From: Xenophilus azovorans DSM 13620
Lineage (GTDB): Bacteria > Pseudomonadota > Gammaproteobacteria > Burkholderiales > Burkholderiaceae_C
Assembly: GCF_000745855.1 (NCBI RefSeq)
Contig: NZ_JQKD01000008.1
Coordinates: 124,001-188,000, forward strand
Length of the DNA stretch: 64,000 nt
Direction of reading: 5' to 3'
Shown here piece by piece: positions 39,250 to 46,778 of this stretch. A model generated the notes under the pieces. That model was given only the letters and a program-made list of their open reading frames with translations. It searched no databases and was not told the origin of the DNA. A program made the translations under genes and the position numbers. How positions within the stretch are numbered: position 1 is the first letter of the stretch; every line of letters starts with the position of its first letter.

Positions 39250-41133
39250 ATGGACCCGCGCCTGCTCACCCTGTACGAACAGGAACTGCGCTACTTCCGC
39301 GAGAACACCGCGGAGTTCGCGCGCGCCTTCCCCAAGATCGCGCGCCGCCTGGGCATCGAGGGCCAGGAGGTGGCCGACCCGTACGTGGAGCGGCTGATCG
39401 AGGCCACCGCCTTCCTGGCCGCGCGCGTCGGGCTCAAGCTCGACGCCGAGTACCCGCGCTTCACCGGGCACCTGCTGGACATCGTCTACCCGCACTTCCT
39501 GGCGCCCACCCCCTCCTGCGGCGTGTGCGCCTTCGCGCCGGACCTGCAGGACGCCAACCTTGCGCAGGGGCCGGTGCTGCCGCGCGGCAGCGCGCTGCGC
39601 GCGCGGCAGGCGACGGGGCAGAACACGCACTGCGAATTCCGCACCGCGCACCCGCTGCGCGCGTGGCCGCTGCAGATCACCCGTGCCCAGTACTTCACCT
39701 ATGCGCCCGACCTGCCGCTGGCCCAGCACCCGCGCGCGCGCGACATCCGCGGCGGCCTGCGCATCGGCCTGAAGGCCACCGCGGGCCTCACGTTCGACAA
39801 GATCGCGCTGGATGCGCTGCAGCTCTACTTCGGCGGCGCGGACGACGTGGCCTGGCAGCTGCACGAGTGCGTGCTCGGCCAGCCCATCGGCGTGCTGGTG
39901 CGCGGCACCGAGGCGGCCGCGCCCGTCACCACGCTGCCGGGCAGCGTGATCGGGGAGGTGGGCTTCGCCGACGACGAATCGCTGCTGCCGCCCACCGCCA
40001 CCGGCTTCTCGGGCTTCCGGCTGGTGCAGGAGTACTTCGCCTTCCCCGAAGCCTTCCGCTTCGCGTGCATCGGCGGCCTGGCGCCGGCGCTGGCGCAGCG
40101 GGCGGTGGACGAGATCGAACTGGTGCTGCTGTTCTCGCGCGGCGACGCGGTGCTGGAGAAGCTGGTGGGCACCGACAGCGTGCAGTTGCACTGCGTGCCG
40201 GTGGTCAACCTGTTCCCCAAGCGGCTGGACCGCGTCACCGTGGGCGAGGGCGTGAGCCAGTTCCACCTGCTGGCCGACCGCACGCGGCCGCAGGACTTCG
40301 AGATCCACTCGCTGACCGAGGTGGTGGGCCACGGCGCGCCGGGCACGGCGGGCGAGGGCGCGCTGGAGCAGGTGTTCCGCCCCTTCTACGCCGCCTACCA
40401 CGACAGCCGCGAGGCGCACCCGGCCTACTACACCACCACCCGCGAGCCGCGCATGCTGTCGGTGCGCCAGCGCGCCGAAGGGCACCGCAGCAGCCACATC
40501 GGCTCCGAGCTGTACCTGCAGGTGGTCGACCCGCAGCAGGCCCCGTTCTCCGCGCAGCTGCGCCAGATCGCATCGACCGCGCTGGTGACCAACCGCGACC
40601 TGCCGCTGCTGCTGCCCGTGGGGCGCGAGAACGACTTCGACTGCGTCGACTCCTTCCCGGTGCAGCGCATCCGCATGGTGCGCGGGCCCTCGCGGCCGGT
40701 CTCGCCGGTGGTGCAGCAGGGGCTGGGCTGGCGCGTCATCGACCACCTGGCGCTGAACTACCTCTCTCTGGCCGACAGCACGCCGGCCCAGGGCGCCGCG
40801 GCGCTGCGCGAGATGCTGATGCTCTACGCCGTGCACGCCGACGACGTGCGCCAGGGCCAGGTGCGCGGCCTGCTGTCGGTGAAGAGCCGGCCGCTGGTGC
40901 GGCGGCTGCCGCTGCCCGGGCCGATCGCCTTCGGCCGCGGGCTGGAGGTCACGCTCGAGGTGGACCCGTCCGCCTTCCACGGCCACAGCGCCTTCCTCTT
41001 CGGCGCCGTGATGTCGCGCTTCCTGGCGCGGCACGTGGAGGTCAACCATTTCGTCGAGACCGTGCTGCGCACCGCCGGCAAGGGCGAGCAGATGCGATGG
41101 AGGCCGCTGTGCGGAACCCGTCCGATCCTGTGA
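39250..41133 (+). CDS. tssF: Type VI secretion baseplate subunit TssF
   Basis: 627-aa VasA/ImpG family protein, part of the TssF2G baseplate wedge. Opening DPRLLTLYEQELRYFRENTAEFA and IARRLGIEGQEVADPYVERL are diagnostic; later FTGHLLDIVYPHFLAPTPS and the C-terminal LSVKSRPLVRRLPLPGP and NHFVETVLRT fit throughout. Length is standard. tssG begins 37 bases before its stop. Confidence 0.97.
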   Translation: MDPRLLTLYEQELRYFRENTAEFARAFPKIARRLGIEGQEVADPYVERLIEATAFLAARVGLKLDAEYPRFTGHLLDIVYPHFLAPTPSCGVCAFAPDLQDANLAQGPVLPRGSALRARQATGQNTHCEFRTAHPLRAWPLQITRAQYFTYAPDLPLAQHPRARDIRGGLRIGLKATAGLTFDKIALDALQLYFGGADDVAWQLHECVLGQPIGVLVRGTEAAAPVTTLPGSVIGEVGFADDESLLPPTATGFSGFRLVQEYFAFPEAFRFACIGGLAPALAQRAVDEIELVLLFSRGDAVLEKLVGTDSVQLHCVPVVNLFPKRLDRVTVGEGVSQFHLLADRTRPQDFEIHSLTEVVGHGAPGTAGEGALEQVFRPFYAAYHDSREAHPAYYTTTREPRMLSVRQRAEGHRSSHIGSELYLQVVDPQQAPFSAQLRQIASTALVTNRDLPLLLPVGRENDFDCVDSFPVQRIRMVRGPSRPVSPVVQQGLGWRVIDHLALNYLSLADSTPAQGAAALREMLMLYAVHADDVRQGQVRGLLSVKSRPLVRRLPLPGPIAFGRGLEVTLEVDPSAFHGHSAFLFGAVMSRFLARHVEVNHFVETVLRTAGKGEQMRWRPLCGTRPIL

Positions 41134-42203
41134 GCGCCGCGCCGCCGCCCACGCAGGCCGCGCCGGCCGAGCGCGCCGCGCTGGCCGGCTGGCTGGCCGA
41201 GCGCGCGCCGCAGGCGTGGGCCTACGACTACTTCGCCGTGATGCGGCGGCTGGAGTGCCTGGCGCCCTCCCTGCCGCGCTGGGGCCGGGCGCTGCGCCCG
41301 TCGGCCGAGGGCGTGCGCGTCGGCCACGAGCCCTCGCTGTCCTTCGCGCCGGCGAGCGTCGGCCGCTTCGAGCCCGGCAGCGGCGACGGCCCGCCCCGCC
41401 TGCGCCAGCACTTCTTCGGCTACATCGGCCCCAACGGGCCGCTGCCCATCCACCTGTCGGACTTCATCCGCGAGCGCGCGCTCAACCACGGCGATCCGAC
41501 CTGGCTGGCCTTCCTCGACAGCTTCTGCCACCGCTTCTCGCTGCAGTTCTACCGCGCCTGGGCGCAGGCGCGGCCCGTCACCGGCATGGACCGGCCGGGC
41601 GAGGACATCTTCCGCCGCCAGATCGGCGCCTTCGTCGGCATCGGCGGCCCGGCGCGCCAGCAGCGCGACGCGGTGCACGACGACGCGCGGTTGCACTTCT
41701 CCGGCTGGCTGGCGCGGCGCGTGCACAACCGCGAGGGCGTCGAGGCCGTGGTCGGCGCCTACTTCGGCGTGCCGGCGCGGCTGGAGCGCTGGGTCGGCCA
41801 CTGGATGCGCCTGCCCGGCGGCGAGTTGACGCGCCTGGGCGCCAGCAATGCCAACGCCGCCTCGCGCACGCTGGGCCTGGGCGCGGTGATGGGCCGCCAG
41901 GTGTGGGACCGCCAGCACAAGGTGCGCCTGCACCTGGGGCCGCTCACGCTGACGCAGTACCGCGACTTCCTGCCCGTCGGCCGGGCACGCCCGGCGCTGC
42001 GCGGCTGGATGCGGCAGTTGCTGGGCGACGAGCTGGAGTGGGACGCGCAGCTCGTGCTGCGCCGCGAAGAGGTGCCGCCCACCCGTCTGGGCGCACCGCA
42101 GGCCGGCCTGGGCGGCAACGCGCCGCGGCTGGGCTGGGTGTCGTGGCTGGGCAGCCGGCCGCGCATGCGCGACGCGGCCGACCTGCGCCTCGCCGGCGGC
42201 TAG
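41097..42203 (+). CDS. tssG: Type VI secretion baseplate subunit TssG
   Basis: 368-aa ImpH/VasB family protein that forms the baseplate wedge with TssF. Features: AYDYFAVMRRLECL, EPSLSFAPASVG, LRQHFFGYIGPNGPLPIHLSDF, GRQVWDRQHKVRLHLGPLT and LTQYRDFLP. ATG 41097 overlaps tssF. The third base of the TAG stop (42203) and its middle A lie in the left terminal repeat of a 266-bp palindromic element, so the present C-terminus (DLRLAGG) may have been set or trimmed by that element; family members end at about this point, so the loss, if any, is small. Confidence 0.95.
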   Translation: MEAAVRNPSDPVSAAPPPTQAAPAERAALAGWLAERAPQAWAYDYFAVMRRLECLAPSLPRWGRALRPSAEGVRVGHEPSLSFAPASVGRFEPGSGDGPPRLRQHFFGYIGPNGPLPIHLSDFIRERALNHGDPTWLAFLDSFCHRFSLQFYRAWAQARPVTGMDRPGEDIFRRQIGAFVGIGGPARQQRDAVHDDARLHFSGWLARRVHNREGVEAVVGAYFGVPARLERWVGHWMRLPGGELTRLGASNANAASRTLGLGAVMGRQVWDRQHKVRLHLGPLTLTQYRDFLPVGRARPALRGWMRQLLGDELEWDAQLVLRREEVPPTRLGAPQAGLGGNAPRLGWVSWLGSRPRMRDAADLRLAGG

Positions 42204-42467
42204 GGTCTGTTGACGCTATGGAAGGGGTCGCGAAGCTCATCCCAGCCCGCCCATCAAGGCGCGCGACGCCGTGCGTGCGTCGGCACGCACAAGGAGCGCA
42301 ACGCCGAGGGGCGGGCTGGGATGAGCTTCCCTTCGGGTTGCCCCGGAAAGGGGCCGTCTGCGGCGTTGCCCGCGCTTGCAAGGCGCCAGCCTTGCTGCGC
42401 ACGGGCGCCTTGCATCCGGCCCCTTTCCGGGGCAACGCGATCCCCTTCCATAGCGTCAACAGACCCT
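42202..42467. mobile_element. 266-bp nested inverted-repeat element (MITE-like)
   Basis: Ends are a ~31-bp terminal inverted repeat (42202-42232 with 42436-42467, one extra base on the right), beginning AGGGTCTGTTGACGC. Inside are two further perfect inverted repeats: 20 bp (42233-42252 with 42309-42328) and 19 bp (42337-42355 with 42418-42436). Each encloses another: GTGCGTGC/GCACGCAC near 42271-42290, and TGCAAGGCGCC/GGCGCCTTGCA near 42379-42414. No open frame of protein-coding quality lies within. No clean target-site duplication was seen. This fits a non-autonomous transposable element that folds as a cloverleaf or cruciform. It separates tssG from clpV. Confidence 0.8.
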
Positions 42468-42544
42468 TAGGAGCCGTGGCATGACCCACGGCCGTTGTTC
42501 TTCCAAAAACCCGGGGGCCGTTCGTCCTTCGTCTGGAGAGTCCG
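42468..42544 (+). other. Leader of clpV, 77 bp
   Basis: Contains the small hairpin CCGTGG/CCACGG (about 42475-42492) and GGAGAG about 10 bases before the clpV ATG. No clear promoter. The remaining tssG-clpV spacer outside the palindromic element. Confidence 0.4.
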
Positions 42545-45280
42545 ATGAGTGAAATCAGCCGCACCGCCCTGTTCGGCAAGTTGAACCCCCTGGCCTACAA
42601 GGCCATCGAGGGCGCCACCGTCTTCTGCAAGATGCGCGGCAACCCCTACGTGGAGCTGGAGCACTGGCTCGCGCAGCTGCTGCAGAACCAGGAAAGCGAC
42701 CTGCACCGCATCGTCCAGCACTACGGCCTGGACATCTCGGTGCTGGCCAAGGACGTGACGGCCGCGCTGGACCGCCTGCCGCGCGGCGCCACCGCCATCA
42801 GCGACTTCTCGCCGCACATCGAGAACGCCATCGAGCGCGCCTGGACCTACGCCACGCTGCAGTTCGGCGAGGCGCAGGTGCGCACCGGCTACATCGTGGT
42901 GGGCATGCTCAAGACGCCGAGCCTGCGCAACCCGCTGCTGCAGATATCGAAGCAGTTCGAGAAGATCAAGGTCGAGGACCTGGCCGAGAACTTCGCGAAG
43001 ATCTGCGACGCCTCGGCCGAAGGCCGGATGCGCGCGCAGGACGGCACCGGCATGGGCAGCGGCGACGTCGGCGACGAGACCGGCGCCATGGCGCCGGCCG
43101 CCATGGGCAAGGGCGATGCGCTCAAGAAGTTCACCACCGACCTCACCGAGCAGGCGCGCGGCGGCAAGATGGACCCCATCGTCGGCCGCGACGACGAGAT
43201 CCGCCAGGTGGTCGACATCCTGATGCGCCGCCGGCAGAACAACCCCATCCTGGTGGGCGAGGCCGGCGTGGGCAAGACGGCGGTGGTCGAAGGCTTCGCC
43301 CAGCGCATCGCGCGCGGCGACGTGCCGCCGGCGCTGAAAGACGTGCGCCTGCTCGCGCTGGACGTGGGCCTGCTGCAGGCCGGCGCCAGCATGAAAGGCG
43401 AGTTCGAGCAGCGCCTGCGCTCGGTGATCGAGGAGGTGCAGGCGAGCGAGAAGCCCATCATCCTGTTCGTCGACGAAACCCACACACTGGTGGGCGCGGG
43501 CGGCCAGGCCGGCACCGGCGACGCCGCCAACCTGCTCAAGCCGGCGCTGGCGCGCGGCACCCTGCGCACCGTGGGCGCCACCACCTGGGCCGAGTACAAG
43601 AAGTACATCGAGAAGGACCCGGCCCTGACCCGCCGCTTCCAGAACGTGCAGGTGGACGAGCCCGACGAGCGCAAGGCCATCCTCATGATGCGCGGCGTGG
43701 CCAGCACCATGGAGAAGCACCACCAGGTGCAGATCCTCGACGAGGCGCTGGAGGCCGCGGTCAAGCTCAGCCACCGCTACATCCCGGCGCGCCAGCTGCC
43801 CGACAAGAGCGTGAGCCTGCTCGACACCGCCTGCGCGCGCGTGGCCGTGAGCCTGCACGCCACGCCGGCTGAGGTGGACGACAGCCGCAAGCGCATCGAG
43901 TCGCTGGAGACCGAGCAGCAGATCATCGGCCGCGAGAAGGCCATCGGCATCGACGTGGCCGAGCGCGAGCAGGCCGTCACCGCCGACCTGGCCGCCGAAC
44001 GCGACCGCCTGGGCAACCTGGAGGCGCGCTGGGGCCAGGAGAAGGCGCTGGTGGACGAACTGCTGGCGCTGCGCTCCACGCTGCGCGGCGGCGCCGGCGG
44101 CACGCAGCCGGTCGAGGGCACGGGCAGCACGCTGGAGGCGCAGGCCGCGACCGAGGCGCCGCCGGCCGCCGACGCCGTCGCCCAGGCCGAGCGCGAGACC
44201 GCGCTGGCGCGGCTGCAGCAGGTGCAGGCCGAGCTCACCGCGCTGCAGGGCGAGTCGCCGCTGATCCTGCCCACCGTCGACTACCAGGCCGTGGCCTCGG
44301 TGGTGGGCGACTGGACCGGCATCCCCGTGGGCCGCATGCAGCGCAACGAGATCGACACCGTGCTCAAGCTGCCGCAGCTGCTGGCCCAGCGCGTGATCGG
44401 CCAGGACCATGCGATGGAGATGATCGCCAAGCGCATCCAGACCTCGCGCGCGGGGCTGGACAACCCGAGCAAGCCGATCGGCGTGTTCATGCTGGCCGGC
44501 ACCTCGGGCGTGGGCAAGACCGAGACCGCGCTGGCGCTGGCCGAGGCGCTGTACGGCGGCGAGCAGAACCTGATCGTCATCAACATGAGCGAGTACCAGG
44601 AGGCGCACACCGTCAGCTCGCTCAAGGGCGCGCCGCCCGGCTACGTGGGCTACGGCGAAGGCGGCGTGCTGACCGAGGCGGTGCGCCGCAAGCCCTACAG
44701 CGTGGTGCTGCTCGACGAGGTGGAGAAGGCCCACCCCGACGTGCACGAGCTGTTCTTCCAGGTCTTCGACAAGGGCTTCATGGAGGACGGCGAGGGCCGC
44801 ACCATCGACTTCAAGAACACGCTGATCCTGCTGACCACCAACGCCGGCACCGAGCTGATCGCCAGCATGTGCAAGGACCCGGAGTTGCTGCCCGACCCCG
44901 AGGGCATGGCCAAGGCGCTGCGCGAGCCGCTCCTGAAGATCTTCCCGCCGGCGCTGCTGGGCCGGCTGGTCGCCATTCCCTACTACCCGCTGTCCGACGA
45001 GATGCTGGGCGCCATCGTGCGGCTGCAGCTCGGGCGCATCAAGAAGCGCGTCGAGGCGCGCTACAAGATCCCGTTCGAGGTCGGCGACGACGTGGTCAGG
45101 CTGGTGGTCAGCCGCTGCACCGAGAGCGAGTCGGGCGGCCGCATGATCGACGCCATCCTCACCAACACCATGCTGCCGGACATCAGCCGCGAGTTCCTGA
45201 ACCGGATGATGGAAGGCAAGCCGATCGGCGGCGTGCGCGTGGGCGTGGCCGAGGGCAACTTCAGCTACGACTTCGCCTGA
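42545..45280 (+). CDS. clpV: Type VI secretion AAA+ ATPase TssH/ClpV
   Basis: 911-aa hexameric ATPase that disassembles contracted T6SS sheath. Clp N domain 1-~160 starts SEISRTALFGKLNPLAYKAIE and VELEHWLAQLL, as in ClpV and unlike ClpB. AAA1: Walker A GEAGVGKT (~238-245), Walker B ILFVDETHTLVGAGG. A coiled middle region carries a low-complexity stretch (~515-545). AAA2: GTSGVGKTETALALAEALYG (~652) and VVLLDEVEKAHPD. ClpV normally acts on TssB/TssC, neither of which is in the window. The palindromic element just upstream could alter its expression. Confidence 0.97.
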   Translation: MSEISRTALFGKLNPLAYKAIEGATVFCKMRGNPYVELEHWLAQLLQNQESDLHRIVQHYGLDISVLAKDVTAALDRLPRGATAISDFSPHIENAIERAWTYATLQFGEAQVRTGYIVVGMLKTPSLRNPLLQISKQFEKIKVEDLAENFAKICDASAEGRMRAQDGTGMGSGDVGDETGAMAPAAMGKGDALKKFTTDLTEQARGGKMDPIVGRDDEIRQVVDILMRRRQNNPILVGEAGVGKTAVVEGFAQRIARGDVPPALKDVRLLALDVGLLQAGASMKGEFEQRLRSVIEEVQASEKPIILFVDETHTLVGAGGQAGTGDAANLLKPALARGTLRTVGATTWAEYKKYIEKDPALTRRFQNVQVDEPDERKAILMMRGVASTMEKHHQVQILDEALEAAVKLSHRYIPARQLPDKSVSLLDTACARVAVSLHATPAEVDDSRKRIESLETEQQIIGREKAIGIDVAEREQAVTADLAAERDRLGNLEARWGQEKALVDELLALRSTLRGGAGGTQPVEGTGSTLEAQAATEAPPAADAVAQAERETALARLQQVQAELTALQGESPLILPTVDYQAVASVVGDWTGIPVGRMQRNEIDTVLKLPQLLAQRVIGQDHAMEMIAKRIQTSRAGLDNPSKPIGVFMLAGTSGVGKTETALALAEALYGGEQNLIVINMSEYQEAHTVSSLKGAPPGYVGYGEGGVLTEAVRRKPYSVVLLDEVEKAHPDVHELFFQVFDKGFMEDGEGRTIDFKNTLILLTTNAGTELIASMCKDPELLPDPEGMAKALREPLLKIFPPALLGRLVAIPYYPLSDEMLGAIVRLQLGRIKKRVEARYKIPFEVGDDVVRLVVSRCTESESGGRMIDAILTNTMLPDISREFLNRMMEGKPIGGVRVGVAEGNFSYDFA

Positions 45281-45761: not shown

Positions 45762-46778
45762 ATGGACAAGTTCACCCAGGCCTACGACAAGGCGCGCGAC
45801 GTCGTCACAAAGCAGAAGTTCGAGGCGGACTGGCAGGCCTTCTCCGAGAAGGCCGGGATGGCCAAGCTGCTGGACGCGTCGGGCTTTCGCAGCGGCGCGG
45901 GCAGCACCGCCGATGCGGTGCGCAAGCGCCTCGAGAAGGCCGCCAGGGACAAGGAACGCAAGGTCGGCGAAGTGATCTACGACGCCTCGGTGAACGCCAA
46001 GTCGCCGGGCCTGCTCGCCGACCGCGCCGCCACCATCAAGTTCGTCAAGCACGTGCACCACGTGCACAAGCGCGGCGGCCAGGACGTCTGGGTCTACGCG
46101 CCGCCCAAGTCCGATGCCGGCTGGGTCTTCGACGAGATCACCGGCGACACGGCCACCATCAAGGCGCGCCTGGAGCACGACGACGAGATCTTCAGCGCCG
46201 ACGAGCGCAAGTGGATGTCCACCTCGCTGGGCAAGGCGCGCAAGATCTCGGAGGACTGCAAGGCCAAGCTGGCCGGCGGCAAGGTGAAGAGTGCGCGCGC
46301 CAGCGTGAAGGAGATGGTCAAGCGCTGGTTCCTCGACGATGCCGACAACGCCGACGATCTCGAGGCGGCCTTCACGACCCTGTACGCGGGGTTCAAGAAG
46401 ATCGCCGCGGCCTGCAACAAGGCCACGCTGGTGTTCGCCGACTACCCCGACTGGCGCGCGCAGCGCGACAAGTACTTCGGCGCTGCGTTCCGGGGCGGGG
46501 AAGGCGGCGCCTTTCCCGTCATCTACCTCGAAGGCGCCTTCACGCGGCTGACCGGCAACAGCGGCAAGATGTGGCTGTGCGTGGAAACGGTCATCCACGA
46601 GATGTCGCACCACGAGGTGTCGACGCAGGACCACCGCTACGACCACCACGGCCTGAAGCCCACCACGGGCTCCTTCCCCTATGCCACCGCGATCGAGAAC
46701 GCGGACAGCTGGGGCTACTTCGCGCTGGACCTGGCGGGCTATCTCTCGCGGGCCGATCGCGACAAGGTCCTGAAGTAG
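45762..46778 (+). CDS. M35-like (aspzincin) metallopeptidase, candidate T6SS effector
   Basis: 338 aa. C-terminal catalytic signature HEMSH (residues 279-283) followed by TQDHRYDHHG, whose Asp290 matches the third zinc ligand of the GTXDXXYG motif in M35/deuterolysin-type enzymes, then AIENADSWGYFALDL. Residues 1-200 are Lys-rich and mostly helical with no signal peptide, as expected for cargo loaded inside the cell. It lies between clpV and vgrG and directly after a small lipoprotein gene. Target protein or peptide unknown. Identification of the fold is good; delivery by T6SS is inferred. Confidence 0.78.
   Translation: MDKFTQAYDKARDVVTKQKFEADWQAFSEKAGMAKLLDASGFRSGAGSTADAVRKRLEKAARDKERKVGEVIYDASVNAKSPGLLADRAATIKFVKHVHHVHKRGGQDVWVYAPPKSDAGWVFDEITGDTATIKARLEHDDEIFSADERKWMSTSLGKARKISEDCKAKLAGGKVKSARASVKEMVKRWFLDDADNADDLEAAFTTLYAGFKKIAAACNKATLVFADYPDWRAQRDKYFGAAFRGGEGGAFPVIYLEGAFTRLTGNSGKMWLCVETVIHEMSHHEVSTQDHRYDHHGLKPTTGSFPYATAIENADSWGYFALDLAGYLSRADRDKVLK

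Follow-up and report, generated by a model that had tools for sequence, protein, structure and literature searches.

A 266-bp two-armed element between tssG and clpV of Xenophilus azovorans DSM 13620, probably an IS-mobilised MITE, and the conservation of its fold in distantly related bacteria

Locus and anatomy of the element

The window, i.e., the whole stretch of 64,000 nucleotides analysed here, is part of the draft genome of Xenophilus azovorans DSM 13620 (6.5 Mb in 132 contigs) and carries a type VI secretion operon in which a 266-bp element lies between tssG and clpV (positions 42202-42467). The TAG stop codon of tssG is occupied by the element, which provides the A and the G of the stop. 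Those open reading frames of at least 90 amino acids that overlap the element merely run through it, and there is no transposase gene in the 266 bp. An intrinsic terminator inside the element was rejected, the terminator scan having found no terminator-like site within it and one just downstream, between the element and clpV (42473-42492; a hairpin with a T-rich tail, one found against 0.4 expected in shuffled sequences). Downstream of clpV, positions 45762-46778 encode a 338-aa protein with a match to Pfam Aspzincin_M35 (lysine-specific metallo-endopeptidase). The features are as follows, the orientation used for the element being the one with the left arm first:

41097-42203, plus strand: tssG, upstream neighbour, outside the element (Pfam T6SS_TssG, 1.3e-94)
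42201-42203, plus strand: TAG stop codon of tssG, its A and G being bases 1 and 2 of the element (sequence, reading frame)
42202-42467, no strand assigned: whole element, 266 bp (repeats, fold, full-length copies elsewhere)
42202-42231, plus strand: left outer arm with the terminal inverted repeat AGGGTCTGTTGACGCTATGG (repeats, fold; ends resemble those of the insertion sequence in locus L073)
42232-42329, plus strand: left hairpin arm (repeats, fold, covariation)
42256-42262, plus strand: conserved motif AAGGCGC in the 5' half of the left arm (arm comparison)
42298-42306, plus strand: conserved motif GCAACGCCG in the 3' half of the left arm (arm comparison)
42329-42337, plus strand: central mini-hairpin CCC-TTC-GGG, with GAA on the other strand (fold, loop survey)
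42337-42436, plus strand: right hairpin arm, related to the left arm in inverted orientation (repeats, fold, arm comparison)
42361-42369, minus strand: conserved motif CGGCGTTGC of the right arm, which is GCAACGCCG on the minus strand (arm comparison)
42405-42412, minus strand: conserved motif GCGCCTTG of the right arm, which is CAAGGCGC on the minus strand (arm comparison)
42437-42467, minus strand: right outer arm with the terminal inverted repeat (repeats, fold)
42545-45280, plus strand: clpV, downstream neighbour, outside the element (Pfam AAA_2, AAA_lid_9 and ClpB_D2-small; the name clpV is from context)

An earlier note on this DNA had described nested inverted repeats at 42202-42467, and pairing and folding bear out the outer stem and the two arms. 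The outer repeats (42202-42227 and 42442-42467) are complementary at 26 of 26 positions, and the stem continues for four more pairs past a one-base bulge, reaching 42231 and 42437. The base of the left arm comprises 21 pairs (42232-42252 with 42309-42329) and that of the right arm 20 pairs (42337-42356 with 42417-42436). Regarding the further inner pairs of 8-11 bp that the same note had placed within the arms, the 8-bp pair at the left tip is complete (42271-42278 with 42283-42290, 8/8), and the 11-bp pair of the right arm (42377-42387 with 42404-42414) is present in the sequence but is replaced in the minimum-energy fold by a competing 7-bp tip (42378-42384 with 42389-42395). The mini-hairpin between the arms (42329-42337) is an addition to that description. 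The claim that the pairing exceeds chance was upheld by RNA folding of 42190-42480, which gave -235.4 kcal/mol, whereas the shuffles averaged -140.7 (z -18.25) and 0 of 200 were as stable; folding the single DNA strands separately gave z -17.01 and -16.95 (0 of 200 shuffles each). A known Rfam RNA was rejected as the identity of the element, since Rfam 15 gave no match in the window at the gathering score (best sub-threshold match, E 0.071).

Copies, insertion sites and partner insertion sequences

Three full copies, with identities of 100, 94 and 91%, and two partial copies are present in the draft genome of the host; six further matches are palindromic parts aligning with the opposite strand and were not counted as copies. 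Within the genus the element was matched by sequence in 10 of 15 genomes, in one of these (G010) by 27 bp only. The start of clpV was found in all 15; among the other 14, the end of tssG lies about 70-145 bp from clpV in nine and farther upstream, at most 1.5 kb, in four, and no tssG was seen within 1.5 kb before clpV in one (L306). The 1.5 kb preceding clpV lack the element in all 14, containing just four chance matches of 12-18 bp; the tssG ends are too divergent between congeners for a base-for-base empty site to be demonstrable. The element thus has further copies in related genomes and is missing from nine congeners in which tssG and clpV adjoin, the opposite of a sequence found only here, in a fixed place in all relatives and without other copies, which the earlier note had named as the outcome that would speak against its reading. 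A search of genome contigs for the exact 26-base end gave 0 matches, and E. coli genomes gave no match to the element at E 1e-5.

Among 40 distinct copies with ends AGGG..CCCT, 30 have T..A flanks and 16 have exactly CT..AG; together with the A and T of the element itself, T..A flanks place TA on either side. The right flank of the window copy is imperfect in this respect (CCCT followed by TA, the usual being CCCT followed by AG). A coding-like TAG stop, i.e., one that ends a long open frame whose third positions are GC-rich, holds 17 of the 27 such copies flanked by 1 kb or more, as compared with 6 of 27 background CTAG sites taken from 279 kb (Fisher p 0.005). Counting 59 copies of all end types, a stop at exactly the same offset was found in 21 flanks (20 copies). 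Relative to the gene with the stop codon, nine copies are in plus and seven in minus orientation, and one lies between two genes. Insertion into TAG stops would be tolerated, as the stop is restored by the element itself.

Several observations concern incomplete or related forms. Draft contigs of G002 end inside copies (C8:1-131, C6:1-104, C6:440544-440664 and C5:102985-103085), as if the hairpin had broken assembly or sequencing. One arm or much of the core is lost in the shortened copies L109 (171 bp), L184 (127 bp) and G000:C12:43894-44071, which are perhaps deletion derivatives. A relative with a single arm, 161 bp long, with ends AGAAGGTGTGAATGAA and bearing the same arm motif once, occurs repeatedly in the seven genomes of the genus that were searched (L170-L175, L179, L181-L183 and L185; also G000:C7:29460-29620 and C7:51520-51680, on the contig of the window and outside the window); no insertion sequence (IS) with such ends was recognised in the search.

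Searching with the ends of the element led to an 807-bp IS in the congener G014, with ends AGGGCCTGTTAACACTA (in L073), of which two frames match Pfam DUF4096 and DDE_Tnp_1, both fragments scoring above the cut-off for NCBIfam transpos_IS5_3; it is present in three places in that genome. A second IS5_3 element of G014 measures 848 bp and has ends AGAACGTGTTCAAAGTCTC, and a two-armed element of the same genome (L178) has ends like it, AGAACGTGTTCAAGGTCTC. As two end types, each with a like-ended IS, enclose the same core, the ends are interchangeable, a point that lay beyond the reach of the earlier note. The partner IS are presumably of the 'IS427-like group'. The 5.5-Mb genome of G014 contains 122 IS5_3-family matches, and at least two of its IS types share ends with local two-armed elements. 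When IS5_3 was searched for in eight genomes and the ends were read at 22 loci, element-like IS ends were seen in G014 only; the ends of the IS of G528, G682 and G000 differ from those of the elements, and no IS with matching ends was seen in the draft genome of the host. The claim of a partner is restricted accordingly, and a known IS partner is not asserted for every end type.

The element is short and without a transposase gene, has terminal inverted repeats in common with a full IS of a congener and occurs in dispersed copies, all of which are features of a MITE. The 'non-autonomous transposon' proposed in the earlier note is in keeping with the dispersed copies, the nine congener junctions without the element, the IS5-family ends and the mostly TA or CTAG flanks. 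Judged from its sequence, the element is probably a non-autonomous, IS-mobilised MITE with ends common to an IS5-family IS of a congener: an IS5-family transposase would act in trans on its ends and insert it at CTAG.

Conservation of the two-armed fold

Within the bacterial family of the host, 101 of the 399 genomes gave matches at E 0.001, with relatives at 66-75% identity, several of them full length. An alignment (A1) of 37 copies from the bacterial family of the host was obtained from 55 distinct elements with a 93% identity filter (L109, L161 and L164 removed; L102, L114 and L116 excluded because no end pair was found), and has a mean pairwise identity of 67% (minimum 51%). Its consensus fold comprises 104 pairs, both sides having changed in 78 of them; 95.8% of the cells are paired, compared with 75.9% after shuffling and 34-44% with slid partners, and the covariation score is 0.515 against 0.147 in the control. 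In the 14 genus copies, double changes that keep the pair number 639, as compared with 89 expected for independent sites, and one-sided changes 476. Among genus copy pairs at least 95% identical, 13 paired changes stand against 34 one-sided ones, which argues that restoration of pairing is not instant.

A covariance model built from the 37 copies (with rough calibration) matched 15 of 15 genus genomes, 88 of 369 genomes of the class (70 of 272 genera) and 70 of 398 genomes of the phylum (43 of 213 genera), 41 of these 70 lying outside the class; the class and phylum samples overlap, and the matches near 1e-3 include partial ones, whereas the strongest span the full length, with values of 1e-30 or lower. 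In 42 loci outside the model set, each represented by its better strand, Watson-Crick pairs make up 89.6% of the cells, with all four pair types at 68 of the 104 pairs and three types at 20 more. Counting both strands of these loci plus two extra matches (alignment A2), 94.0% are paired against 54.5% after shuffling and 38-41% with slid partners. All these figures for the 42 loci lean towards the model because the loci were aligned by fitting to it; further pair types in A2 were not above those of the shuffles (499 of 500 as high). These comparisons of sequences show that the two-armed predicted fold is conserved in distantly related bacteria while the letters of the stems change almost wholly and stay paired; such sharing across the phylum likewise exceeds what the earlier note could have addressed.

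The length is 258-272 bp in 95 of 97 distinct elements (one of them, L331, from outside the class; four more outside-class elements were examined separately), a constancy that is partly due to ascertainment, as most elements were gathered as full-length matches of the 266-bp query or the 268-position model. A model-free check in G674, with ends located by pattern alone, gave 16 facing pairs at 264-267 bp, single pairs at 271 and 332 bp, and eight pairs at 92-198 bp (counted by eye).

Both arms carry (C)AAGGCGC ... GCAACGCCG, which in the right arm is read on the opposite strand. In a comparison of 173 arms from 97 elements the conservation of these motifs is partly built in, since the arms were located by anchors inside them; of 85 elements, 63 showed the strict pattern in both arms, 21 in a single arm and one in neither. 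The five elements from outside the class have AAGGCGC in nine and GCAAC in nine of their ten arms. Comparison with their own reverse complement gives 64% identity for whole elements and 56% for cores, shuffled cores reaching 49%. The mini-hairpin CCC-NNN-GGG is present in 92 of 96 elements (L109 being left out of the loop counts), its loop being TNC in 58, GNA in 29 and another in five (TNC or GNA in 87 of 92); TNC and GNA are reverse complements of each other.

Action of the fold and relation to known elements

Loops of the form C(GNA)G are exceptionally stable in DNA, and those of the form C(UNCG)G are stable in RNA; the loop of the mini-hairpin alone therefore does not decide between the two nucleic acids. 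Action of one strand as RNA should make G·U more acceptable than A·C. A fold in which G-U pairs were disallowed left 445 single mismatches in 85 elements, of which 104 are G·T, 107 A·C and 234 other, and this near-equality speaks against selection as a one-strand RNA. On the sense strand, as set by the upstream gene where that was known (16 copies), G·T numbered 23 and A·C 15 (p 0.26), and the loop was TNC in eight, GNA in six and another or not found in two. In the model-fitted alignment G·U outnumbered A·C by 214 to 74, an unfair test because the model consensus at some pairs is itself G·U. On the structured RNA that the earlier note had envisaged as an alternative, which might reduce read-through into clpV or stabilise the message of tssG, two observations bear: no terminator-like site was detected within the element, and the mismatches have no clear bias towards one RNA strand.

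A fold selected as RNA of the transcribed strand, e.g., as a co-transcribed 3' hairpin that shields the mRNA upstream of it, stops read-through or serves as an RNase III substrate, would agree with the very stable RNA fold, the many copies immediately after a stop codon, the C(UNCG)G-like loop on one strand, the slight G·T excess on the sense strand and the precedents covered in the relevant passages of the review PMC2229807; it is weakened as the main reading by the balance of mismatches in the frame of the element, the even orientation to the stop-codon gene and the mixed loops on the sense strand, and we consider it unlikely. RNA from either strand, the inverted arms conferring independence of orientation as in an anti-polarity or mRNA-protecting operon insert, is the nearest rival, though still a rather unlikely one: the arms are inverted relatives, all 42 loci outside the model set match the covariance model on both strands, and the sites are at gene ends and between operon genes, but no known RNA family is matched (Rfam 15). 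Pairing might also be maintained by mutation without selection if replication template switching copied changes from arm to arm. That this mechanism can keep stems paired is known (PMC8794818), and the paired double changes are far above chance even within the genus (89 expected under site independence); it leaves the conserved unpaired motifs, the TNC/GNA loop and the near-constant length unexplained and is improbable as the sole account, although it may act additionally. A chance or local palindrome without a mobile element is refuted by the dispersed copies, the nine congeners lacking the element at the junction and the shuffles, and is scarcely credible.

A fold at the level of DNA is favoured over these. 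It would act as a cruciform extruded from the duplex or as a single-strand hairpin in replication, and might be kept because it aids the movement or persistence of the element. Such a DNA fold would account for the inverted arms, which present the same signals on both strands, as well as for the even orientation to genes and for G·T being no commoner than A·C. On balance we think it probable, without being confident, that the element is a MITE moved by an IS5-family transposase at CTAG and, least surely, that its fold acts as DNA and helps its movement or persistence. A wider reading is offered more tentatively, as a possibility we would not yet call probable: a phylum-wide mobile core with inverted arms, motifs, a GNA/TNC loop and near-constant length, in which the sequence turns over and the ends are swapped to fit different IS, the selected feature being a shape of extruded or single-stranded DNA recognised by some factor.

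Integron attC sites have the boxes RYYYAAC ... GTTRRRY; no such arrangement was seen in the element when compared by eye with these boxes. The IS5-family IS of L073 resembles the element in its terminal repeats and TA/CTAG flanks and differs in having 807 bp and a transposase, as against 266 bp and none; beyond the ends, neither arm of the element was seen in it by eye. Like the element, the bacterial MITEs NEMIS/Correia, ERIC, RUP and YPAL, in the passages treating them in PMC2229807 and PMC3733652, are short and gene-less with terminal inverted repeats and a stable fold, and their mobilisation in trans is likewise deduced. Effects of NEMIS and ERIC hairpins on mRNA (upstream protection, read-through block, RNase III cutting) are reviewed in the same part of PMC2229807. 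The MITEs described there are named for single genera or groups, whereas the present architecture and motifs extend beyond the class, one plan being kept over the phylum with ends exchanged to suit different IS. Nearest in shape are the CIR elements of Caulobacter and Brucella, which also have two long hairpin arms; the section on CIR in PMC2229807 gives them about 110 bp, a linker between the arms and GANTC in the loop and notes no outer stem of paired ends, and the element, with 266 bp and a paired outer stem, falls outside that group. REP and REPIN sequences are palindromic, dispersed and thought to be mobile, as is the element (relevant parts of PMC3733652 and PMC3116915), but are units of 20-40 bp with a GTAG or CGTC tag and IS200/IS605-like transposases (PMC3733652, same part), unlike the present elements of 258-272 bp with DDE-type IS5 ends. 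Template-switch hairpins share with the element stems kept complementary via paired changes (PMC8794818), yet they represent a mutation mechanism rather than an element, and conserved unpaired motifs do not follow from it. In a 2026 survey of inverted repeats, MITEs are mentioned only in general terms in the pertinent passages (PMC13155455). No prior description of the element was recognised in the open-licence literature; subscription journals and preprints were outside this scope, and a published description elsewhere is possible.

MITEs are commonly viewed as short-lived remnants of a single insertion sequence. Here, a gene-less core in an element family without an Rfam family match at threshold has one architecture over genera, families and beyond the class, most of its paired positions accepting any Watson-Crick pair. 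Two questions thereby become testable, namely why a non-autonomous element conserves a fold and whether bacterial DNA cruciforms have selected functions. Because the family is frequently found at gene ends, it may have an influence on operons, the present type VI secretion operon among them. If the reading as a phylum-wide core is true, the heritable feature of the element would be a DNA shape recognised by some factor.
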